DNA of 34,770 bases from a virus: positions 1-34,770 of the IMG/VR virus record IMGVR_UViG_3300044799_000718. One strand, written 5' to 3'. Below are positions 5,146 to 22,826 of the stretch, in pieces (within the stretch, counting starts at the first letter, position 1; every line of letters starts with the position of its first letter). Under the pieces are notes generated by a model. The model ran no database searches, was not told the origin of the DNA, and worked only from the letters and a program-made list of their open reading frames with translations. The position numbers and the translations under genes are program-made.

Positions 5146-5439
5146 TCAGGCAATCTTTTCGAATGCGTCGGTTTGACCGTGCTCGATTGAGATAGTCGCG
5201 AGACCGATCGAGACGGTCTGCAGATTCGGATCTACCGGGTCCTGGTGGTAACCTGCCGTCTGATGCACGAAGCCTTGCAATTCTCGCGTTGCCGGGACCG
5301 CATGAGCCACGGATATGTTGCACGTCTCCTCACCCGGATTCAAGTTGACAACGACGCCTTGGATCTCATACTTCACATTGTATCCCTTACCTCGAACGAC
5401 ATCTCCGAGATTTGCCGGTGTTCCATCTTTGTAATGCAT
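5146..5439 (-). CDS. Small conserved-looking phage protein between the terminase subunits
   Basis: A 97-residue protein starting with ATG behind AAAGG. Its N-terminal half (DGTPANLGDVVRGKGYNVKY and IQGVVVNLNPGEE) looks like a small beta-barrel with an SH3-like rhythm, and the C-terminal half carries TVSIGLATISIEHGQ. No catalytic motif is seen and I do not recognise a family. It lies 21 bases upstream of the terminase and 26 bases downstream of the small terminase, so it is part of the head-packaging operon. Confidence 0.6.
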   Translation of the reverse strand: MHYKDGTPANLGDVVRGKGYNVKYEIQGVVVNLNPGEETCNISVAHAVPATRELQGFVHQTAGYHQDPVDPNLQTVSIGLATISIEHGQTDAFEKIA

Positions 5440-11553: not shown

Positions 11554-11964
11554 TTATTTCATTCGCCAGATGTGGCAAATGTTGCCGGTGATTTTGCACT
11601 TCCTCCGGCCGGCGTCGACCACAACCGTGTATTCCCTGAGCTCGAACGTGCGGCCGACGACCCGGTTGATCGGCCAGCCAAGGTGGTGTGCGATTTCCTC
11701 ATTCGTCGCTGGGCCGATTTGACGGATTGCGTCGAGCACCGTCAGTTGGATCTCCGTGAGCTTCACCTGATCATGTGTCAGGATCGTATACGCCAGGTTG
11801 CGCGTATCAGTCGCAATAGGCATCGACTTCTTGGCCGCTCTAAATCGGCTTCGAGTCGGCTCCGGAATGCGTTTCGAAACCCCCTCAAAGAGTGGCAACC
11901 CGGCAGTCATGCCATAGCGATTGATCGTTTCGATGCGCAGTCTATTTCGACGGTAAAGTGACAT
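11554..11964 (-). CDS. Winged-helix DNA-binding protein
   Basis: A 136-residue protein. The basic N-terminal half is likely flexible. The C-terminal half has a clear winged-helix plan: LTEIQLTVLDAIRQIG, then TNEEIAHHLGWPINRVVGR as the HTH and a hairpin ending near ITGNICHIWRMK. It is likely a transcription or replication-initiation accessory protein. No ligand-binding domain is seen. The start is ATG 11964 with only a weak ribosome-binding site, so translation may depend on the upstream gene, which ends 10 bases away. Confidence 0.62.
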   Translation of the reverse strand: MSLYRRNRLRIETINRYGMTAGLPLFEGVSKRIPEPTRSRFRAAKKSMPIATDTRNLAYTILTHDQVKLTEIQLTVLDAIRQIGPATNEEIAHHLGWPINRVVGRTFELREYTVVVDAGRRKCKITGNICHIWRMK

Positions 11965-11974
11965 TGAGACGGAT

Positions 11975-12457
11975 TCACCTCACAGGTTGTCTCAACTTAT
12001 TGCCTAACCAAGCCAGTCCTTTGTGCAACCAACGCAGCCATCCCAACAGGCGGTAACGCCAAACGCTAAACCGAATTCCAGATTTCTTTAGCGCAGCTTC
12101 GATCGACCCAAACCGGTGGATATATGTCGCGTAATCCGCCATCCCTTTTTGTCGATTGTTTTGGAGGTCGATCAACGTGGGCACATAGCCAAGATCGTGC
12201 ACAAATCCATTCAATCTCTGGAGCAAATCCTCATCCTTCCATTTTACATAGGGCCGCGGAGGACTTGAATTCGGCTCGTAACCCGCCGCTCTAATCGCAT
12301 TGTTAAACGATCCGAACCGCATCCAGAATGTTCTATGGTGAGACATTTTGTTGACGGGTCGGCATTCTCGTACTGTCGGAGGGCGACCATGAACCTGATA
12401 GAAACGTCTTATCTGCTCTAATAGTACCCTCTTTGTTAAGGGACGATTTGTCCGCAT
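11975..12457 (-). CDS. HNH-associated-repeat protein (two repeats), unit A
   Basis: The product has two copies of the repeat found next to HNH homing endonucleases: LLEQIRRFYQVHGRPPTVREC ending in MRFGSFNNAIRAAGYEP, and LLQRLNGFVHDLGYVPT ending in HRFGSIEAALKKSG. A basic amphipathic tail with several Trp follows. No HNH nuclease motif is present, so a DNA-binding role is more likely than cutting. ATG 12457 is preferred; a GTG at 12472 overlaps the stop of the 76-residue gene. It follows leader A and its small gene, exactly as the homologue at 16167 follows leader B. Confidence 0.72.
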   Translation of the reverse strand: MRTNRPLTKRVLLEQIRRFYQVHGRPPTVRECRPVNKMSHHRTFWMRFGSFNNAIRAAGYEPNSSPPRPYVKWKDEDLLQRLNGFVHDLGYVPTLIDLQNNRQKGMADYATYIHRFGSIEAALKKSGIRFSVWRYRLLGWLRWLHKGLAWLGNKLRQPVR

Positions 12458-12468
12458 CCCAAAGTTCC

Positions 12469-12699
12469 TCACTTTGCACCTCGCTTTCTTCGCAGCGATT
12501 GCTCTGCTTGGAAAAGCTCATGGCTCGCGCGTTCCAGCCAAGTGAATGCATTCGCGCAAAGCTGGCGATCGTCGCACAACCATATTGGGCAGTATCCGAT
12601 CGCAAAAGACAGTGACAAATCTTTGAGGGTGTCGCGCAGTAGGTGCAGATCGGCGCGAACCCGCACGATAGACGTGTGTACAGATGGTGACTTAGGCAT
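12469..12699 (-). CDS. 76-residue helical protein under leader A (paralogue of the 16673-16900 gene)
   Basis: ATG 12699 is set by GGAGG a few bases upstream. The product starts MPKSPSVHTSIVRVRADLHL, continues with DTLKDLSLSFAIGY and ANAFTWLERASHELFQAEQ, and ends in a basic tail. The paralogue of unit B has MPNPRSVRASLVRTRTNLYF and ANALTWLERASHELLEAEQ, so the whole protein is conserved. Longer frames upstream run through the structured leader and are not expected to be used. Family unknown; its start is predicted to be masked by the leader RNA. Confidence 0.75.
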   Translation of the reverse strand: MPKSPSVHTSIVRVRADLHLLRDTLKDLSLSFAIGYCPIWLCDDRQLCANAFTWLERASHELFQAEQSLRRKRGAK

Positions 12700-12859
12700 G
12701 TAGCCTCCATTGGATTGTTGGACAAAAAATAATAAGCCCCTGCGCGTCCAAAGGCTCCAATGGAGGCCTCCACCCCGACTGTTTCCAGCGGGATGACGCA
12801 GGGGCAAAAATGAAGATTCCGCCTGACGGGGCGGAGATTGCCGCCATAGGATTTTGGAC
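12700..12859 (-). ncRNA. Structured cis-regulatory leader RNA, copy A
   Basis: The predicted start is G at 12859, six bases after the -10 box. GTCCAAA at the 5' end pairs with TTTGGAC (12752-12746), and a second GTCCAA (12723-12718) lies after the terminator-like stem and could compete. Inside are GGCGG-CAATCT-CCGCC and the overlapping alternative CCGCC-CCGTCA-GGCGG, a hairpin CCCGCTG-GAAA-CAG-CGGG, and the stem GCCCCTGCG/CGCAGGGGC followed by a T-rich tract. CCTCCATTGG (12766-12757) is fully complementary to CCAATGGAGG (12713-12704), which contains the ribosome-binding site of the 76-residue gene. Copy B keeps the same plan with different bases. Confidence 0.72.
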
Positions 12860-12865
12860 AGCGGC

Positions 12866-12894
12866 AATATAAAACACTCACAAACCAAAGTCAA
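12866..12894 (-). promoter_or_regulatory. Promoter of leader A
   Basis: Minus strand: TTGACT (12894-12889), 17 bases, TATATT (12871-12866). The -10 box is followed by GCCGC, which with GCGGCAAT downstream makes a 16-base-spaced inverted repeat around the start site. This is also present in copy B and may be an operator. Confidence 0.7.
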
Positions 12895-12899
12895 GATAG

Positions 12900-13106
12900 T
12901 CACCGGTTTTTCTTTCTAAACCATTGGTTGTAACTATTAGCGATGAACGGCGCATATCCTCCCGAACTCGTTTGCCACACACAATACACACTACACACTA
13001 CCCCTACCGTCTCAGCACCTTCGATGATCGGCGTCCAGTCGTGCAATTGCGGGAGGCATTCCGGCGTTTTCCGCGGATCGACTGTCTCAGGTCCGTCGTT
13101 TTCCAT
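12900..13106 (-). CDS. Small protein of unknown function
   Basis: A 68-residue product with a strong ribosome-binding site (AAGGAG seven bases before ATG 13106). The start overlaps the end of the preceding gene by 20 bases. The sequence has a hydrophobic segment with two Cys (GVVCSVYCVWQTSSGG) and ends in a basic tail (SYNQWFRKKNR). Layout and residues recall small proteins that display a ligand-like beta-hairpin, but no family is recognised. It ends just before the promoter of leader A. Confidence 0.58.
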   Translation of the reverse strand: MENDGPETVDPRKTPECLPQLHDWTPIIEGAETVGVVCSVYCVWQTSSGGYAPFIANSYNQWFRKKNR

Positions 13107-13701
13107 CCCCTCTCTCCTTCTTGAATGAGTTCAACATCTCTCTGCCCTTCGCCGTCAGACTCCACCATGCTGTTTGGCTATATCTCCCTCCGGTCACTGC
13201 CGAGTTTCGCTTCAGGTAGTCGAGGGTGTTTGCAACAACTTGTTTTGACGTGACGATTTGGTTCACGAGCAACTCAGTATGGATCTCCTGCGTGCTGGCG
13301 TTGTCGCAACCAGGTGGGGTCAGCCGTTGAAGGGCTCTGAGAATCTCCAACCTCGGACTTGTGCCGATCGCTCGCTCGAATGCTGTGTGCAGATCTCCAA
13401 AACGGATGTAGAGCAACTTGGCAACACTGGAACTCTCGTTGTCAATATCTGTATGCGTCGGAAATCTCTTCAACCGCTCGTAGAGATTCCGGAGCCAAGC
13501 GAGAAGTTCCTCGTCGGTCCAGGCGTGCTGCACAGCGTCTTTTCCGATCGATTCCATCAGGTAAGCGCCCCAGCTCCCCCAACATTGGTACACCCGCTTG
13601 CGTGCACCGTTGCCGAGCTCGGTAGAGCGAGGGACACGCTTATGTTTCGCGTAAAAATCCTTCGCTTGCTGGATGAGTCGTTCTTTGGTCCAGATTCTCA
13701 T
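13087..13701 (-). CDS. HNH-associated-repeat protein with C-terminal winged-helix domain
   Basis: A 204-residue protein. Residues 1-55 and 60-113 are two HNH-associated repeats (LIQQAKDFYAKHKRVPRSTEL; ELLAWLRNLYERLKRFPT, ending YIRFGDLHTAFERAIG). The C-terminal part looks like a winged helix (LEILRALQRLTPPG, NQIVTSKQVVANTLDYLKRN, then a wing ending SLTAKGREML). It is the third repeat protein in this phage and the only one joined to a recognisable HTH, which favours a gene-regulatory role. The start is ATG 13701, inside the preceding gene's 3' end. Confidence 0.7.
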   Translation of the reverse strand: MRIWTKERLIQQAKDFYAKHKRVPRSTELGNGARKRVYQCWGSWGAYLMESIGKDAVQHAWTDEELLAWLRNLYERLKRFPTHTDIDNESSSVAKLLYIRFGDLHTAFERAIGTSPRLEILRALQRLTPPGCDNASTQEIHTELLVNQIVTSKQVVANTLDYLKRNSAVTGGRYSQTAWWSLTAKGREMLNSFKKERGDGKRRT

Positions 13702-13870
13702 GATGTTCTTTACCCGGTCCTGTTTCCTGATCGTGCATTTTTTGAAAACGGACTATCTCACGCGCCGCTGCTTGCGCTGCCTCGATCGCCACCTGATCGG
13801 GAATGCCGAAGGACCGCACTATGAACTTAATGGCGAAAAATATCTTGCTCTCAAGTTCGCTGGGCTTCAT
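13640..13870 (-). CDS. Small helical protein of unknown function
   Basis: A 76-residue product starting with MKPSELESKIFFAIKFIV, then a helical stretch (QVAIEAAQAAAREIVRFQK) and a polar tail. The start overlaps the previous gene by 20 bases and the end overlaps the next by 62 bases. The long overlap is unusual, but the chain of overlapping genes here makes it credible. No family is recognised. Confidence 0.5.
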   Translation of the reverse strand: MKPSELESKIFFAIKFIVRSFGIPDQVAIEAAQAAAREIVRFQKMHDQETGPGKEHHENLDQRTTHPASEGFLRET

Positions 13871-14111
13871 TCCTGGCCGAGTAGGTCTGCGTGTAAAAGC
13901 GAGAGATCATTCCGCTGCCGGCAAATCGCATTCTCGATTGAGCAAGTTTCAGGATCACGTTGAACTCCGTAAGGTCCTGCGGCTCCAGGACGTGTGAGCT
14001 CTGTGTCGCCGGATCGGTGAACCATACCAGCCCGGATCGTTCGCCGATCGGGTGAGCGCCTGCTCGCCTGATTGTTTGCGAGTGTGCCTCAACTCTGTCG
14101 AGTTCGATCAT
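13851..14111 (-). CDS. Small protein downstream of Gam, unknown
   Basis: ATG 14111 (MIELDRVEAHSQTIRRAG) is chosen because GGAGG lies six bases upstream; a longer frame starts at 14162. The 86-residue product is polar with a beta-like middle (SGLVWFTDPATQSSHVL) and a helical segment (DLTEFNVILKLAQSRMRF). No family is recognised. It is part of the same leftward operon as Gam. Confidence 0.55.
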   Translation of the reverse strand: MIELDRVEAHSQTIRRAGAHPIGERSGLVWFTDPATQSSHVLEPQDLTEFNVILKLAQSRMRFAGSGMISRFYTQTYSARNEAQRT

Positions 14112-14143
14112 TATCGGCCTCCAGACCGACGTTCCCGTTGGTC

Positions 14144-14665
14144 TTACTGGATGGTGTCCCACTTAATATCGTAGACGAACTCGTCTGTCGACTGGATCTT
14201 GATTCCCACGGCAGCCAGCTTCGAGTCGGTGATTTCCTTGGCCGCAACGTCCGCGAGGATTTTCTCTTTGTCTACCTCGAAGGCCTGGCGGAGATAGCGA
14301 ACGCCGAACCTCACGCGCTTCAGCAATTCGAGCACGGTCTCCCAGTTGTACTTTCGGTTGAGTAGTGCGACCTTCGGAGGCGAGGTTCTGAATCCCACTG
14401 TACCGTGCACCAGATCGCGTGCGCGCGGTTTCTCGAACTCGTCCTTGTGCTCGTTGCAGAAAAGCTCAATGTCAGTCTCAAGAGCTAGTTTGCGCTTTCG
14501 TGCATCGGCAGTAGCGTCGTCCGATAGTTGTCGGATCGTTTGAATCCTCTCGTTGAGCTTTGCCTCTTCCTTTTGCAGGAAAGCGGCCTCCTTGCCGAGA
14601 TCCAGGAGAGCCGCGTCGACTTCCTCGAAGTTTCGAAGCGTCGTCGTTTGAATCTTCTTTGCCAT
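14144..14665 (-). CDS. gam: Gam-like host-nuclease inhibitor
   Basis: Binds linear double-stranded DNA ends and shields them from host exonucleases; related to eukaryotic and bacterial Ku. The 173-residue length from ATG 14665 (MAKKIQTTTLRNFEEV, with AGAGG upstream) fits Mu Gam (about 174). Two long helices (residues 15-75) are followed by the family's beta core with HGTVGFRTSPPKVALLNRK and a C-terminal IKIQSTDEFVYDIK. The extra 30 codons upstream to 14755 come from a dispersed-repeat region and are not expected to be translated. It sits two genes downstream of GemA, as in Mu relatives. Confidence 0.9.
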   Translation of the reverse strand: MAKKIQTTTLRNFEEVDAALLDLGKEAAFLQKEEAKLNERIQTIRQLSDDATADARKRKLALETDIELFCNEHKDEFEKPRARDLVHGTVGFRTSPPKVALLNRKYNWETVLELLKRVRFGVRYLRQAFEVDKEKILADVAAKEITDSKLAAVGIKIQSTDEFVYDIKWDTIQ

Positions 14666-14790
14666 AAAGACCTCTTTTGATGTGAAGTTGGTCAACAGTG
14701 AATCGTGAATAGTAAACCGTTGCTTTGATCCCTCGTCCCGGCGCAGAGCTCCCACGGACTACGCCGGGATCGTCTCTATTCGGAGGCGCC

Positions 14791-15180
14791 CTATGCGGGC
14801 TGAGGCGGCTTGCGAGGGGTTGATGCTCCATGAATCACTCTGAAATAGCAAACGCCTTCTGTGGCAGCAAGACGAGAGTCTGCCTGTTCTCGCCAGATAC
14901 GCAGTCGCTCATTTGCGATGAGGGTCTGATCATGGATAAGTTTGTGGATGTCACCGCCTTGACGCTTTGTCCTCACCAAGTTTTTGTAGGTGAGCTCATA
15001 GAGTTTATCGAGCGCGTCGGTTGTCGTCAGCCCCGGATAGCATACCTGTGCGAGTCTGATGAGCTCGCGGGTTCTAACTTCATCCCTCCTCCTTGCTTTG
15101 CGGGCCAGCAGCTGCACGGCCGCACGCGCAAAGAGCAAGGCGGCAATAATGTAGATAATCACGAAGACGATGCCCGTCAT
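14791..15180 (-). CDS. Membrane-anchored protein between GemA and Gam
   Basis: The ATG overlaps the stop of GemA (ATGA type). The 129-residue product has one N-terminal membrane segment (IVFVIIYIIAALLFARAAVQLL) followed by a basic cytoplasmic region (ARKARRRDEVRTREL) and a helical tail. No family is recognised; a single-span membrane protein in the early operon could act in exclusion or host takeover. The 125-bp gap downstream holds an imperfect inverted repeat (TCCCGGCG at 14736 and CGCCGGGA at 14762) and a repeat-like segment, with no other gene seen. Confidence 0.55.
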   Translation of the reverse strand: MTGIVFVIIYIIAALLFARAAVQLLARKARRRDEVRTRELIRLAQVCYPGLTTTDALDKLYELTYKNLVRTKRQGGDIHKLIHDQTLIANERLRIWREQADSRLAATEGVCYFRVIHGASTPRKPPQPA

Positions 15181-15692
15181 GCTGCACTCCTTTCTCCCGT
15201 TGGGGTGCTGGATTCATCTTTCTGTCTTTCAAGTTTTGTGTGTCGATGATACCCGTCGGACTGATCCGGTGAGAGCTTGAGCAGCCCCTTGGCGATGCGA
15301 TCATCGATGATGCGGATGAGGCCAATGATCACCTTGCTTAGCTCGCCGGCATTGCAGTCTTTCGTCGATCTCTTGCCTGTCTGATGGAGACAGAATCTCG
15401 CAGTGTCTTTCCAGGTCCAGCCGAGATAGTCCATGAGCCGGGCGATGAATTTCTGCTGGCGCTGGTTTTTCAGGGTCACCGAAGTTGCGCCAATTGCACC
15501 CCCGGACACCATCCTCTCCAGCGCCAGCAGGACCAGGTTCGCATTCTCGTCGTTACAACGCGTGAGATGACCTTCGCTTTGCTCGTCAATCGATGAGACA
15601 ATCATCCGATACGTCTCTTCGTCAAGTTTCAGCCGGCCGAAGGCCAGAGCTCCGACGCGTTGATTCAACTTTTTGCGCTCTTGGCGGTCCAT
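15177..15692 (-). CDS. gemA: GemA / Mu gp16-like regulatory protein (DUF1018)
   Basis: The 171-residue protein has the DUF1018 plan: an N-terminal segment with LKLDEETYRMIVSSI, and a C-terminal segment with QRQQKFIARLMDYLGWTWKD followed by GKRSTKDCNAGELSKVIIGL. In Mu, GemA is an early protein that alters host gene expression and DNA supercoiling; its exact activity is not settled. The gene lies between MuA/MuB and Gam, as in other Mu-like phages. The start is ATG 15692, five bases from the preceding stop. Confidence 0.82.
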   Translation of the reverse strand: MDRQERKKLNQRVGALAFGRLKLDEETYRMIVSSIDEQSEGHLTRCNDENANLVLLALERMVSGGAIGATSVTLKNQRQQKFIARLMDYLGWTWKDTARFCLHQTGKRSTKDCNAGELSKVIIGLIRIIDDRIAKGLLKLSPDQSDGYHRHTKLERQKDESSTPTGERSAA

Positions 15693-15697
15693 CGGCC

Positions 15698-16102
15698 CTA
15701 TCCGTTCGCCTTGATGTAAGCCGCGAGCTTGCGAAGCGTCAGGTTGGCTGCTTCCAGGTGCGCCTGATGGAGATCAATGAGCTCCTCTTTTGTGAAGACG
15801 ATCGAGCCGGCTAACTTCGTCGGCACTGGATCGGCGGAACCGGCTGGCGGCTGGTGGAGAACAGGACCGCCTTTCCTCGTCGGCAGGATGGTCGTTGCTT
15901 TGCCGAAGTTGAAGGCACTTTCGTCGATCGTGTGGCGTGCGATTTTTTCCTGGCGCTTTCCTTCGCAGCCCTCATTGAAAATGACGGAAGAGATTTTTCC
16001 CTTCTGGACGACACGGAATTTCACAACCGAGAGCGTCGTTTCCTTCTTCCGGTCGGTGAGCATCTTGCCGTCCCGGCTGATGTAGAATCTTTTTTCGTCC
16101 AT
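15698..16102 (-). CDS. Unknown early protein with C-terminal helix
   Basis: A 134-residue protein with GGGAGAGG five bases before ATG 16102. The N-terminal half is beta-rich and basic (RFYISRDGKMLTDRKKET, TLSVVKFRVVQKG), a proline-rich linker follows, and the C-terminus is helical (TKEELIDLHQAHLEAANLTL). No family is recognised. The 64-bp gap upstream contains GTGAACCTTCAC at 16123-16134, a perfect inverted repeat that could be an operator. Confidence 0.58.
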   Translation of the reverse strand: MDEKRFYISRDGKMLTDRKKETTLSVVKFRVVQKGKISSVIFNEGCEGKRQEKIARHTIDESAFNFGKATTILPTRKGGPVLHQPPAGSADPVPTKLAGSIVFTKEELIDLHQAHLEAANLTLRKLAAYIKANG

Positions 16103-16166
16103 GTCTACCTCTCCCTAATAGTGTGAACCTTCACTTGACTCTGTTATTTACTTGATGAGACCGTTT

Positions 16167-16673
16167 CTACCCAAGGGATACCCTCTCTCTGAGCCGATCG
16201 TGCAAATTGGCCAACATGAATATCATGTGCCCCACGAAGGATCGTGATATGTACCGAAAACGATTGTAACGCATTCCAGATTTGCAGAGCGCCCTGCTCA
16301 AAGAGCCGAAACGCTTCTTGAATGTCGTTAAGGAGGGCAAACCGCCTCCGCCCGAAATAATCATGTCGTTTGCGGTTGGTATGTATCCAAGTCTCTGTGC
16401 GAACGCACGCAGAGCCGCGAGCAATTCTCCTTCTGTGTACTTGTTGGGTCCTGTGTACGCTCCGTCTCTGAGCGGTTGAAGTCCCGCCGCGAGAATTGCC
16501 TTGTTCCAAGATCCGAAGCGAACTAGATATGTGGTTGTAGAGGGGATTCCGTTCTTCCCTGCATTTCTGGCGGCGGGAGTCTTACCATGTCTCAAAGAGA
16601 ATTCTCGCAACAATTCGAGCAATCGCTTGTCGCTGAAGTGAGCCATCTCACACCTTCTCGATCCCCTTCTCAT
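16167..16673 (-). CDS. HNH-associated-repeat protein (two repeats), unit B
   Basis: Homologue of the protein at 11975-12457. It has two repeats (LLELLREFSLRHGKTPAARN ending LVRFGSWNKAILAAGLQP; LLAALRAFAQRLGYIPTAND ending KRFGSLSRALCKSG) and a basic amphipathic C-terminus. ATG 16673 overlaps the stop of the 75-residue gene as TGATG; a second ATG at 16646 (MAHFSDKRLL) has its own AGGTG and may be the real start. No nuclease motif is present. Together with leader B and the small gene it forms a unit duplicated as unit A. Confidence 0.72.
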   Translation of the reverse strand: MRRGSRRCEMAHFSDKRLLELLREFSLRHGKTPAARNAGKNGIPSTTTYLVRFGSWNKAILAAGLQPLRDGAYTGPNKYTEGELLAALRAFAQRLGYIPTANDMIISGGGGLPSLTTFKKRFGSLSRALCKSGMRYNRFRYISRSFVGHMIFMLANLHDRLRERVSLG

Positions 16674-16900
16674 CACACACCTCTCTTTCTTCGCAGCACT
16701 TGTTCCGCTTCGAGGAGTTCGTGACTCGCTCTTTCCAGCCAGGTCAACGCGTTCGCGCAGAGTTGCTGCTGGTTGCAGAGCCACACCGGATGAAACCCGA
16801 TAGCGACAGAGAGTGAAAGATCTTTGAGGGTTGACTGCAAGAAGTAGAGATTGGTTCTTGTGCGCACCAGGCTGGCACGCACGGATCTTGGATTAGGCAT
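16673..16900 (-). CDS. 75-residue helical protein under leader B
   Basis: Paralogue of the 76-residue protein at 12469-12699, conserved from the start (MPNPRSVRASLV) to the basic end (RRKRGV), with the core ALTWLERASHELLEAEQ nearly identical. ATG 16900 is preceded by AGGAGG. The ribosome-binding site lies in a segment complementary to an upstream loop of the leader. It is the first gene after MuB and is likely the start of the middle operon that contains GemA and Gam. Function unknown. Confidence 0.75.
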   Translation of the reverse strand: MPNPRSVRASLVRTRTNLYFLQSTLKDLSLSVAIGFHPVWLCNQQQLCANALTWLERASHELLEAEQVLRRKRGV

Positions 16901-17063
16901 AAAGCCTCCTACGTAAGTTTTTGGACTGGAAACAAGAAGGCGCCCGCGCGTCCAAGAGCCACGTAGGTAGCTCCGACCCGGTTGAGTACGGGTCACGCAG
17001 GCGCCATAAAATGAAGACGCCGCACTAACGGGGCGGTAATTGCCGCCTACGCAATTCTTGGAC
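16901..17063 (-). ncRNA. Structured cis-regulatory leader RNA, copy B
   Basis: Same plan as copy A. GTCCAAGA at the predicted 5' end (17063-17056) pairs with TCTTGGAC (16957-16950), and another GTCCAA lies at 16926-16921. GGCGG-CAATTA-CCGCC competes with CCGC-CCCGTTAGT-GCGG. Further stems are GACCCG/CGGGTC, GAGCTAC/GTGGCTC and the terminator-like GGCGCCTGCGT/ACGCGCGGGCGCC. CCTACGT (in 16967-16961) pairs with ACGTAGG next to the ribosome-binding site (16914-16905). Relative to copy A, base pairs are exchanged on both sides of several stems, the mark of selection on RNA structure. Confidence 0.72.
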
Positions 17064-17069
17064 GGCGGC

Positions 17070-17098
17070 AATGTAAGCAAGAGCAGTATGAATGTCAA
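17070..17098 (-). promoter_or_regulatory. Promoter of leader B
   Basis: Minus strand: TTGACA (17098-17093), 17 bases, TACATT (17075-17070). The -10 box is followed by the same GCCGC as in copy A. It begins nine bases after the MuB stop, so the middle operon can be transcribed independently of A-B. Confidence 0.7.
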
Positions 17099-17106
17099 GT
17101 CGTGCA

Positions 17107-18057
17107 TCAGTCGACCAACCATGCAAAACCGCCCTCAAGGCAGTCCGAATCGATCTTTCGCTTTCCGCGAAGCTGTTGTTCATCGTACGCTCTCGCCATC
17201 AGGGCAACGAGGCTCGCGACACCAAATCGCTTCACACTCCAATTCCAGGCTTCTTTTAATTCGTCCCGCTCCAGGGAGTTGGGCCACATCTCAGCTATGC
17301 GTCGTGCTTCCTCGAAAGAGATGTCACCGACGGAACGCTTGATGCGGATTCGACGACGCAGGTAGCCGAGCATTGGATCCTGGAGGACCTTGCTCAGTTT
17401 CTCAGTGCCGATGAGAACGATAGCGCATCGTTCTGCAGCCTCCCCACCATGAACATCCTTCAGAATAGCGAGAGTGCGGGGCTTCAGATTATCTGCCTCA
17501 TCTACAACCAACAGCCGGGGACGGCGTTGAAGGCTGCGGATAATTGAAAAGAGTTTATCGTCTTGCGAACCTATCATCGACCCCTCGATGTTGAGTGCCT
17601 CTGCGATGCGGTGCAAGAGAGAGGTGGGCGAGGTGGTGGAGAGCAACTCCACGTAGGCAGCGTACTCTGAATTCAATGCGACAAACCGTCCAGCCGCCTT
17701 TGATTTACCACAGCCGAAATGACCGACGATCTGACCGATCTCTTTACGTTTCCAGCAGAGCAACATTGTTCCGTGGATCTCTTTAACGACAGAGGTCTCG
17801 ATGATTGCATACTTCGCGATGTAACTGCGATAGAACCTCGCCAGAGCGTCATCGAGTTTCTCGGTGTCGCCTTCGTAGGTGCCAGAGAGAGCTTGCGAGA
17901 TTGTCGGGGCAGCGAAACTGGTGAACTTCGCGATCTCGCGGAGTTTAATCTCACCGTTTTCCAGAAGTCCTTTGATCGTACTCCGGACCTGGTCAGGTTT
18001 GTCGCTAGAGAATTTCGCTCGCTCGACGAGATCGAGTCGGCTTGTGGCGCCCGTCAT
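17107..18057 (-). CDS. muB: MuB-like AAA ATPase, transposition target activator
   Basis: Binds target DNA as ATP-dependent filaments and stimulates the transposase, giving target choice and immunity. The 316-residue protein has an N-terminal HTH (LREIAKFTSFAAPTISQALSG), Walker A GHFGCGKS at residues 112-119 and Walker B RLLVVDEAD with Asp 186 and Glu 187. It lies 10 bases downstream of the transposase gene, the usual A-B order. The start is ATG 18057. The C-terminal region is helical, as in Mu B. Confidence 0.92.
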   Translation of the reverse strand: MTGATSRLDLVERAKFSSDKPDQVRSTIKGLLENGEIKLREIAKFTSFAAPTISQALSGTYEGDTEKLDDALARFYRSYIAKYAIIETSVVKEIHGTMLLCWKRKEIGQIVGHFGCGKSKAAGRFVALNSEYAAYVELLSTTSPTSLLHRIAEALNIEGSMIGSQDDKLFSIIRSLQRRPRLLVVDEADNLKPRTLAILKDVHGGEAAERCAIVLIGTEKLSKVLQDPMLGYLRRRIRIKRSVGDISFEEARRIAEMWPNSLERDELKEAWNWSVKRFGVASLVALMARAYDEQQLRGKRKIDSDCLEGGFAWLVD

Positions 18058-18067
18058 AACAATCCTC

Positions 18068-20029
18068 CTATCGAATTCTATCGTTTACCAATGCGCTACT
18101 GATGGACATTACCTTCGCTCGCTTCTTTGCTTTCGTCTCGATCTCGACCGCTTCCTTCTCGGCCTCGATCTTCCGTTCGTTTTCTTTTGCCTGCTGCTCC
18201 ACGCCGGTGAGGAACGTGACCGGAGTTGAGTTTTTCATCGTCAGTTCTTTTCCAACCGGCGTCATGTTGAGCAGCTCACCCTCGAGTAACATCACCTTTG
18301 CATCCGTGTCCGAGAGTCCCCGACGATGTTCTTTCAATTGCACCTGCAATCCTTTCTCCGCGCGCTTCCGGTCCCGGAGTATCTTCAGCCAGCTGCGTTC
18401 GTCCTGACCGATCATCTCTTTATTGGAGGCGACCGCCGCAAACTTCCCGCCGACATAAATCGAAATGAATCCGAGATCTCGAGGATCGAAGTACACATCG
18501 GCCATCTGCTCGTTGAATGCAAGCAGCGAGTCGCTGTAGTATTCTCTACCAAAGAGTGTTACCTGGCAACGACGGATCCTCCGTCCTTGCTTCTTCATCA
18601 TCAGGAAGTCAAGGACGCGCAGATCGATCGTGCGCTGTTGCGTTTGATTGGTCAGATAGCATTGCAGAGGACTCTGTCCAGCGAGGTTTCGATGGATGCG
18701 GTTGTTGTACGTGTTGATCGCTACCATCACCAGGGCGTCGAACTGATCGACTGGCAGAATTCTTCCCGCCTTCAAATCCTCGGCGAGAGAATCCGGTTTG
18801 TTCCGATACTGGTTGCCTTTGTACCCCGGAAGGTATTTGAGCATCGTTTGAATCGTGCGATGCCATCGTTCGATTTGCGCTTTCGACTGTGCGTGGTAGC
18901 GGAGCGTGTAATGCAGGCGAGTCATTCGCTGAACGCTCAGTCGTGCGGCATCGTCAAAGTCGATTTTCCCGAACACGCGCCGCGTGTATTTGCTGCGATA
19001 GTCCTTACCGTTGTCGATCATCACCGTCTCGGGCACGTTGCTCATCGTCACGGGCTCGAACTTCTCGCCGGTGAATGCCTTGATCTGTGAGCCAAGAACG
19101 CCGTTGCGGAATGCGAGCGAGATTGTGTGCGATGAAGGTTGCCAGTCCAGATGCGTTCCGACAATGAGTCCCGTACGGAAGTCTATGAACGATGTGATCC
19201 ATCTTCGGTCGAGCTCGCCGCGTTCATTGAGCACCATGAAGTCGAGCTCAGTATGGTCACCGATCCACAGCTCGCCTGGGTGATACTGTGTCACGTCGCG
19301 CGTGACGTAAGGTTCCTGCATCGTCTCCCAATCATGCTTCCTTGAGCGTCCCCTCCGGACTGCGACGTATTCCTGGCGCCATTTGCGCAAGAACCTGATC
19401 ACGCTCGCTTCACTCGGCAAGTCCTCGAGGCTTGCCGGCGAGAGTCCCTCGCGTGTCTCGACGAAGACCTGTTTCTTCAGGCAGCGAGCCTTGATTGCGC
19501 GATAGCAACTCGTGGCATTCACGCCTTCGCGCGGGTAGAGTGATTTCAGAAACTCTTCAACAGAGATCTGCTCGCCCGTTGCCGGCACAACGACACTCAG
19601 CCGTTTTGCGCTTCGTAACGAGTTCCTGTCGGAGCGGTCGTCTCGCGTTAGAACAAATTCCAGTGCTTGCTTGATTTGCGGATGAGCCGCGATGAGCGCC
19701 AGAGGTGCGCGTGAAGGGAGTTTGAAGAGCTTTCGAAGTTCAGATTTGTAGCGCCTTTGTTGGCCAGGTGAGATGTCGAAAAGTTCGTCGATGCTGCGCT
19801 CGGCCTCGGAGATCTCAGCGGCGTTGAACGATGCCAGCAGGGCATCACACTTTCGTAACAGCTCTTCGGTGACACGATCGTGAGGGACTGATGGCAGTGA
19901 GACGTCTTGGTCGTGAGACGGAAGACGTGAGACGGAAGACGATTCGACGTCTGGCTTTTGGCTAACAGCTAACCCCTCGACTTCGCTCGGGACGGGTAGC
20001 TGTTGGCTGTTGGCTGATGATTCACTCAT
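18068..20029 (-). CDS. muA: MuA-like DDE transposase
   Basis: Catalyses strand cleavage and transfer in phage integration and replicative transposition. The catalytic triad is visible: Asp 258 in WIGDHTELDF, Asp 339 in MIDNGKDYRSK and Glu 387 in QSKAQIERWH, with spacing like Mu A (269, 336, 392). An N-terminal region with helical DNA-binding segments precedes the core, and a basic helical tail of about 70 residues, which in Mu contacts MuB, closes it. The first 50 residues are low-complexity and encoded by dispersed repeat-type DNA (VPSEVEG and SVSRLPSHDQDVSLPS). GGAG upstream of ATG 20029 supports the start. Confidence 0.95.
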   Translation of the reverse strand: MSESSANSQQLPVPSEVEGLAVSQKPDVESSSVSRLPSHDQDVSLPSVPHDRVTEELLRKCDALLASFNAAEISEAERSIDELFDISPGQQRRYKSELRKLFKLPSRAPLALIAAHPQIKQALEFVLTRDDRSDRNSLRSAKRLSVVVPATGEQISVEEFLKSLYPREGVNATSCYRAIKARCLKKQVFVETREGLSPASLEDLPSEASVIRFLRKWRQEYVAVRRGRSRKHDWETMQEPYVTRDVTQYHPGELWIGDHTELDFMVLNERGELDRRWITSFIDFRTGLIVGTHLDWQPSSHTISLAFRNGVLGSQIKAFTGEKFEPVTMSNVPETVMIDNGKDYRSKYTRRVFGKIDFDDAARLSVQRMTRLHYTLRYHAQSKAQIERWHRTIQTMLKYLPGYKGNQYRNKPDSLAEDLKAGRILPVDQFDALVMVAINTYNNRIHRNLAGQSPLQCYLTNQTQQRTIDLRVLDFLMMKKQGRRIRRCQVTLFGREYYSDSLLAFNEQMADVYFDPRDLGFISIYVGGKFAAVASNKEMIGQDERSWLKILRDRKRAEKGLQVQLKEHRRGLSDTDAKVMLLEGELLNMTPVGKELTMKNSTPVTFLTGVEQQAKENERKIEAEKEAVEIETKAKKRAKVMSISSALVNDRIR

Positions 20030-22724: not shown

Positions 22725-22826
22725 CTCCTTGGTCCCTCTTTGGGATAGGAGACGGGTTATCCAACTAGGAGCCCCGATCTGGTGACAGACGAGAATGTCT
22801 GTCCGACCAGGTTGGGGCTTTTTTTT
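22725..22826 (+). terminator. Late-operon leader R: hairpin, shared 16-nt motif and strong intrinsic terminator
   Basis: After the start site a hairpin (CTCCT at 22725 with AGGAG at 22747) is followed by ATCCAACTAGGAGCCC (22759-22774), the same motif as in leader L. A very stable hairpin then forms: AGCCCC/GGGGCT outside, TCTGGT/ACCAGG in the middle, GACAGAC-GAGAAT-GTCTGTC at the tip, followed by eight T (22819-22826). It stands before the first late gene at 22851. The order hairpin, motif, terminator is reminiscent of antitermination leaders such as HK022 put sites, but no sequence match is claimed. Confidence 0.75.

Follow-up and report, generated by a model that had tools for sequence, protein, structure and literature searches.

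Two leaders in a Mu-like virus record resemble C4-type antisense-RNA control elements

The window analyzed here is the whole of IMG/VR virus record IMGVR_UViG_3300044799_000718, 34,770 bases with Mu-like genes, and it carries two paralogous leaders on the minus strand. Each is followed by the gene for a protein of 75–76 residues and then by that for a protein carrying two HNH_repeat units (PF18780), as a first-pass annotation made from the letters alone had described, with correct extents (start codons at 16900 and 12699, first target copies starting at 17063 and 12859). These leaders are probably control elements of the C4 antisense-RNA type, which would block translation of the small open reading frame (ORF) and of the HNH_repeat protein coupled to it. 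From 5′ to 3′, each leader consists of a target copy A1 (a1, a short spacer, and b1), a small CCGN..NCGG hairpin and its U-rich linker, the 5′ strand of stem P1, helix P2, hairpin P3 with segment b′ in its loop, segment a′, the 3′ strand of P1, a U-rich tail, and a second target copy A2 (a2, a spacer, and b2), which repeats the A1 sequence and overlaps the Shine-Dalgarno sequence; the start codon of the small ORF follows, and then the overlapping start of the HNH_repeat gene. The antisense segment A*, b′ then a′, lies inside the GC-rich stem P1 and is complementary to A1 and A2 alike. The parts of the two leaders are:

17046–17063, minus strand: leader 1, A1 (a1 GTCCAAGA, b1 GCGTAGG), the 5′ target copy; duplex with A* −23.4 kcal/mol, covarying
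17020–17036, minus strand: leader 1, hairpin H2 (CCGC..GCGG), then the U-rich linker CGTCTTCATTTTAT; read from the sequence, hairpin and linker occurring in most relatives
16939–17005, minus strand: leader 1, C4-like core, with P1 (GGCGCCTGCG/CGCGGGCGCC), P2, P3 presenting b′, then a′
16950–16967, minus strand: leader 1, A* (b′ CCTACGT, GGC, a′ TCTTGGAC), complementary to its own A1 and A2
16927–16938, minus strand: leader 1, U-rich tail after P1, intrinsic-terminator-like in sequence
16905–16926, minus strand: leader 1, A2 (a2 GTCCAA, b2 ACGTAGG), overlapping the Shine-Dalgarno sequence AGGAGG; duplex with A* −18.8 kcal/mol
12844–12859, minus strand: leader 2, A1 (a1 GTCCAAA, b1 CTATGG); duplex with A* −15.0 kcal/mol
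12818–12835, minus strand: leader 2, hairpin H2 and U-rich linker, from a terminator-like scan and from relatives
12736–12805, minus strand: leader 2, C4-like core, with P1 (GCCCCTGCG/CGCAGGGGC), P2 with a GAAA loop, P3/b′, then a′
12746–12763, minus strand: leader 2, A*, complementary to its own A1 and A2
12724–12735, minus strand: leader 2, U-rich tail TTATTATTTTTT, from the sequence
12704–12723, minus strand: leader 2, A2 (GTCCAA, CCAATGG), overlapping GGAGG; duplex with A* −20.0 kcal/mol

The proposed pairings of the 5′ strand, GTCCAAGA with TCTTGGAC and GTCCAAA with TTTGGAC, are present, and both leaders contain the compensated GC-rich stems and the complementarity between a loop and the ribosome-binding site. 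The two leaders fold better than shuffled sequence (z −3.4 and −4.4), and within the 34.8-kb window the best transcribed-strand matches of each A* are its own A1 and its own A2. A sigma-70 promoter stands before each leader, and these are the only two matches of 10/12 in the region:

17070–17098, minus strand: promoter of leader 1, TTGACA-17-TACATT, 10/12 consensus match; predicted +1 at 17063
12866–12894, minus strand: promoter of leader 2, TTGACT-17-TATATT, 10/12 consensus match; predicted +1 at 12859

The −10 boxes end 6 nt before GTCCAA in both window leaders, making this motif the predicted 5′ end of each RNA, so that A1 is probably where both transcripts begin; the distance is 5–8 nt in 17 of the 21 members described below. 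This placement points the opposite way from transcript starts downstream of the pairing strands, which had been named in advance as the contrary outcome. The 5′ GCCGCC/GCCGCT strand falls past the −10 box but ahead of the predicted +1, and its hairpin with GGCGGC is therefore probably absent from the RNA; the alternative GGCGG/CCGCC hairpins proposed earlier are also not kept in relatives, unlike the hairpin CCGN-loop-NCGG followed by UUYAUUUU.

Twenty-one distinct members, from IMG/VR phages and from genomes of Calditrichota, Fibrobacterota, and the phylum containing Melioribacter, were assembled by homology, DNA pattern, profile, structural descriptor, and covariance model. A protein search yielded L003; a DNA pattern plus a profile of three leaders yielded L010 and two copies in L109, a third copy of which came from a profile of six leaders; terminase relatives combined with a structural descriptor yielded L117, L120, L127, and L144; and a second pattern yielded L231 together with three loci from bacterial genomes, L247 (Chitinispirillaceae) and L324/L328 (Calditrichaceae). 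The covariance model R1, which comprises P1 and P2 only, found eight new loci, six with A1 and A2, one with A2 only, and one with A1 only; as R1 contains neither A1 nor A2, these loci provide the fairer test of covariation, and individual shuffle tests on them were significant mostly, not always. A single genome holds four of the eight, and no two of these have the same a/b sequence. Regarding the alignments, the first ones made with MAFFT misplaced P1, and some of the nine sequences of alignment A10 were slightly edited (single bases dropped or N inserted), solely to build R1, so that the result obtained with this alignment leans towards structure; the covariation count used unedited arms. 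GC-rich chance matches overwhelmed a descriptor scan based on energy alone, and a stricter descriptor worked. Three elements searched by BLASTN against a set of 50,697 phage records gave no match.

In the 21 members (near-duplicates L328 and L361 excluded), six helices are composed of standard pairs to 96.5–100%: A1a:a′ to 98% and A1b:b′ to 97%, A2a:a′ to 96.5% and A2b:b′ to 100% in the 17 loci with A2, and P1 and P3 to 100%, with double changes. Changes on both sides affect 34 of the 35 pairs, and when whole arms were re-dealt among loci pairing reached at most 81%, with none of 5000 trials attaining the observed value. The strands of P3, which was recognized only after c4-2 had been aligned to L362, change in concert (AGC/GCU, GGC/GCC, GAG/CUC, CGC/GCG, ACU/AGU, UGC/GCA, ACC/GGU, CGU/ACG, and UGU/ACA). 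Cognate duplexes average −18.8 (A1) and −16.7 kcal/mol (A2) versus −6.9 and −8.6 kcal/mol for non-cognate ones, a difference equaled in 0 of 20,000 permutations. The second GTCCAA noted after the terminator does exist, but as an invariant motif it does not hold, since it varies with its partner (GTTCA, GCTAA, ACCTA, and GGTAA among the variants). The earlier notion of an autoregulated leader with partner swapping is supported, with A1 and A2 competing for one antisense segment and covariation in 21 distinct loci. Core length is 61–70 nt in the members segmented, the U-tail being extra, and the tail after P1 is U-rich in all members.

Pairing specificity is orthogonal among copies, which number as many as three in a phage and four in a bacterial genome; since the two window copies have different a/b sequences, each would control its own operon only. 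A1 is matched in 20 of the 21 loci; in the exception, L365 (minus strand), A* fits A2 (CAACAGG) and not A1 (CCAATGG), which may represent a switch of specificity still in progress. Among other observations, the search of the Fibrobacterota phylum returned L384 (G069 contig 480) along with L362–L365, four cassettes in one genome with different a/b sequences, and the L362–L365 cassettes each precede a protein of 203–211 residues, two such sequences giving no Pfam match when scanned. At L117 (5562–5692) and L366 (1459–1563), A1, core, and U-tail occur with no A2, as candidate stand-alone RNAs.

The genes behind the two window leaders are:

16673–16900, minus strand: small protein of 75 residues, copy 1, predicted two-helix hairpin
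16167–16673, minus strand: protein of 168 residues with two HNH_repeat units (PF18780, E 4e-25), its start overlapping the stop of the small ORF (TGATG)
12469–12699, minus strand: small protein of 76 residues, copy 2, 67% identical to copy 1
11975–12472, minus strand: HNH_repeat protein of 165 residues (PF18780, E 1.4e-24; two units), with a 4-nt GTGA overlap with the small ORF

The two-helix prediction was obtained for three sequences of the small protein (pLDDT 80); searches with the 75-residue protein found one viral relative only, L003, and none in genome contigs or the phage collection, and comparison with Icd of phage P1 indicated that the small proteins are unrelated to it. The small proteins of L109 and L010 are not clearly similar to those of the window, yet an HNH_repeat gene still follows, so that the RNA and the HNH_repeat gene appear better kept than the small-ORF sequence. 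Two relatives, like phage P1, have an anti-repressor gene behind A2, of ORF6N type in L127 (phrog_4608, 8e-34) and of Bro-N type in L231 (phrog_5060, 8e-11), and the L367 cassette precedes a RadC-like protein gene in a prophage-like region that also encodes integrases, a tape-measure protein, and a DnaD-like loader. Targets across members are HNH_repeat, ORF6N, Bro-N, and RadC proteins and other proteins without assignment. The small helical proteins and the HNH_repeat proteins are viewed here as candidate regulators of lysis versus lysogeny. A HEARO/IscB or homing-endonuclease reading, prompted by PF18780, was discarded, as neither an HNH nuclease domain in the two proteins nor an Rfam match to such an RNA was found.

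Under the C4-type proposal, transcription would start at A1, and the nascent RNA would fold into a compact core, with P1 around P2, P3 (b′ in its loop), and a single-stranded a′, after which P1 and the U-rich sequence would end much of the transcription. In RNA that reads through, b′ and a′ would recognize A2 at the ribosome-binding site, either in cis or by way of a separate core RNA in trans; this pairing would block translation of the small ORF and, through the overlapping start and stop codons, that of the HNH_repeat protein, whose gene would occupy the place of ant in the phage P1 layout. A1, as a duplicate of the target, would compete for b′ and a′, although its role is the least certain step, as it may be a decoy, a folding partner, or an activator strand as in IsrK. 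The U-rich linker between A1 and P1 is a plausible cleavage site, and a cut there would free A* from A1. Sequence and covariation establish the strands and stems, the promoter placement, the ORF overlaps, the orthogonal pairing, and the anti-repressor targets of two relatives, whereas termination, processing, action in trans, repression as the sign of the effect, and a part in immunity or in the lysis-lysogeny decision are inferred.

The best placed of the rival explanations, although an improbable one, is a purely cis-acting attenuator in which A1:A* (ON, Shine-Dalgarno sequence free) alternates with A*:A2 (OFF, sequestered), with read-through set by P1 and the U-tail and no trans RNA. All strands lie within about 160 nt, and within each copy A1:A* and A*:A2 have similar energies (for example −20.6/−20.7 kcal/mol in L003 and −15.0/−20.0 kcal/mol in leader 2), as such a switch would have it. 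The idea that A1 might be energetically preferred to A2 proved inconsistent across copies. Against the attenuator, the same topology works in trans in phages P1, P4, and Gifsy-1 (PMC5320573, PMC4825925), L117 and L366 retain a perfect A1/A* without A2, which a cis switch at the Shine-Dalgarno sequence would not need, and divergent specificities within one genome are a requirement of trans-acting RNAs. Slightly more doubtful is activation as by IsrK, in which A1 of the terminated leader would bind A* of the read-through mRNA and free the Shine-Dalgarno sequence, the small RNA being an activator. A1 is the predicted RNA 5′ end and as complementary to A* as A2 is, and IsrK of Gifsy-1 does activate translation of orf45-anrP in trans (PMC4825925); the core nevertheless has the structure of C4, which represses, and shows b′ in the P3 loop. 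Finally, the riboswitch considered by the first-pass annotation, or any leader in which a small molecule or protein stabilizes an A1:A* pseudoknot, is very improbable: one subgroup has a conserved P2 loop (GUGA/GCGA) and a GCG motif, and the topology with P1 is pseudoknot-like, but GCG is the 3′ strand of the covarying P3, P2 sequence differs between subgroups, few unpaired positions are conserved and no ligand-pocket-like core is seen, the arms vary freely, the HNH_repeat, ORF6N, Bro-N, and RadC targets are functionally unrelated. The put-like antiterminator also named in that annotation has neither positive evidence nor an Rfam match.

Several points weigh against assigning the window leaders to the C4 type. 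Leader 1 has an interrupted U-tail, which may make termination partial, and repression through A2 is not universal, since a good A2 is missing from L117, L120, L144, and L366. The arms entering the covariation count were picked by eye. RF01695 (C4) gave no match in the window at gathering threshold nor on either leader at E ≤ 10, RF02944 (c4-2; gathering cut-off 41 bits) did not score the window leaders, and neither did R1; the leaders are tied to the other members by the match of a profile of both leaders and L003 to L109b (E 2e-7), by shared architecture, and by the presence of both types together in phage L109.

Leader 1 is placed after the MuB gene and leader 2 upstream of the gene for a 136-residue protein (11554–11964), in a window that also encodes a Gam-like protein, a large terminase, and:

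18068–20029: transposase (phrog_310)
17107–18057: MuB-like ATPase (phrog_296)

A third HNH_repeat protein of 204 residues, without such a leader, is encoded at 13087–13701 (minus strand), its C-terminal part matching phrog_436. HNH_repeat matches were found in all nine related phage records searched, and the HNH_repeat genes of the cassettes may consequently be paralogues of a core phage gene. A terminator-like stem with eight consecutive T (GCCCCGATC...GGTTGGGGCTTTTTTTT) lies at 22771–22826 (plus strand) and scores weakly with R1. Elsewhere, a protein with GmrSD_N and HNH domains was seen at 5309–6859 of L386, flanked by an integrase and the RadC cassette within a prophage-like region; an Rfam int-alpA RNA (37.2 bits, above cut-off) at 1315–1382 of L357, about 1 kb downstream of a cassette; and a phage-borne tRNA with a long variable-region insertion (Rfam tRNA, 46.4 bits) at 14128–14218 (minus strand) of L127.

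Immunity of the C4 type was established in P1 and P7, and Rfam families have since broadened it bioinformatically. C4, c4-2, and an unrecognized branch in Mu-like and other phages, Calditrichota, and Fibrobacterota would be united by a single testable rule, namely that the antisense core has the same target sequence on its upstream and its downstream side; this rule predicts the outcome of base swaps. A broader reading, for which the odds seem somewhat less than even, is that of a portable self/non-self code, in which a mobile cassette has its 12-nt a/b word written three times (decoy A1, antisense A*, and target A2) and drifting in concert, so that several cassettes of one genome, as well as incoming relatives, would be silenced only by a matching RNA; as parts of this same reading, the 5′-terminal decoy A1 would set the threshold, and the cassette would have captured diverse effectors (HNH_repeat proteins, anti-repressors, and RadC), well beyond the proteobacterial phages of the original C4.

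Concerning known systems, an Rfam scan of the window at gathering and permissive thresholds returned nothing relevant, P1 c4 itself scoring 68.8 with RF01695. The c4-2 model, however, scores relative L362 exactly on its core (38.5 bits, E 4.8e-7, below the 41-bit cut-off), and the bridge to c4-2 is a chain, in which the profile of both window leaders and L003 finds L109b, L109b is part of R1, R1 finds L362, and L362 matches c4-2. An HDV-like ribozyme topology was rejected, as nothing lies between A* and the 3′ strand of P1.

Like c4-2 (RF02944, in the C4 clan CL00128), the window branch has a core whose P3 presents b′, A1 and A2 copies, and many copies per genome; in c4-2, by contrast, stem P1 is longer with an internal loop and a is near-constant (TCCTA in the loci read), whereas a varies in the window branch. 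Target copies on either side of the core were found by script in c4-2 loci L369, L370, L372, L373, and L377, and by reading in L378, L379, and L382; in one example, TCCTAAATTACAGA stands before and after a core carrying TCTGTAA and AGGA. In the phylum of G012 (L369–L383), c4-2 elements number up to six per genome, and most loci read have upstream and downstream copies, A1 often preceding ATG there like a duplicated translation start. The source paper of c4-2 may already mention flanking target copies.

Satellite phage P4 CI RNA is alike in that one antisense segment pairs with an upstream copy, seqA, and a downstream copy, seqC, of the seqA-seqB-seqC layout (PMC4825925), but P4 acts through premature transcription termination, and the likeness considered here is one of layout. 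IsrK of Gifsy-1 is likewise a leader RNA ended by an intrinsic terminator, that of the orf45-anrP operon, whose read-through mRNA has a sequestered ribosome-binding site and a small ORF translationally coupled to the anti-repressor (PMC4825925); IsrK differs in activating in trans, and the window matches no Rfam family.

The closest parallel is C4 of P1 and P7 (RF01695; c4-a1b1, RF03163), in which the b′ loop occludes the ribosome-binding site, a′ gives specificity, and RNase P makes a 77-nt RNA (PMC5320573), near the core length seen here. The P1 record reads a1, b1, C4 RNA, a2, b2, icd (73 residues), and ant1 overlapping icd by 4 nt, icd apparently being needed for ant expression (PMC8201110), and in the Rfam C4 model stem P1 encloses P2, P3, and a′. 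The window leaders share the order of promoter, a1b1, core, a2b2 over the Shine-Dalgarno sequence, small ORF, overlap, and regulator, for which the HNH_repeat protein is a candidate; the core with P1 enclosing P2, P3 (b′), and then a′ before the P1 3′ strand; two-segment pairing with b′ at the ribosome-binding site and a′ just upstream (17 loci with A2), its specificity varying among relatives; the second target copy upstream in the same transcript, behind a promoter; and the small ORF overlapping the next gene. They differ from C4 in that a and b are almost contiguous (7–22 nt apart in C4), A1 is at the predicted transcript 5′ end, a U-rich tail follows P1 where RNase P makes mature C4, and small proteins unrelated to Icd and HNH_repeat proteins stand in place of Icd and Ant. 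In summary, where the first-pass annotation could name no known class, layout and structure are those of the C4 and c4-2 antisense RNAs, and the chain of matches, taken with this layout and the missing Rfam score, files the window leaders as a diverged C4/c4-2 variant, proposed to work as C4 does and a member of neither Rfam family.

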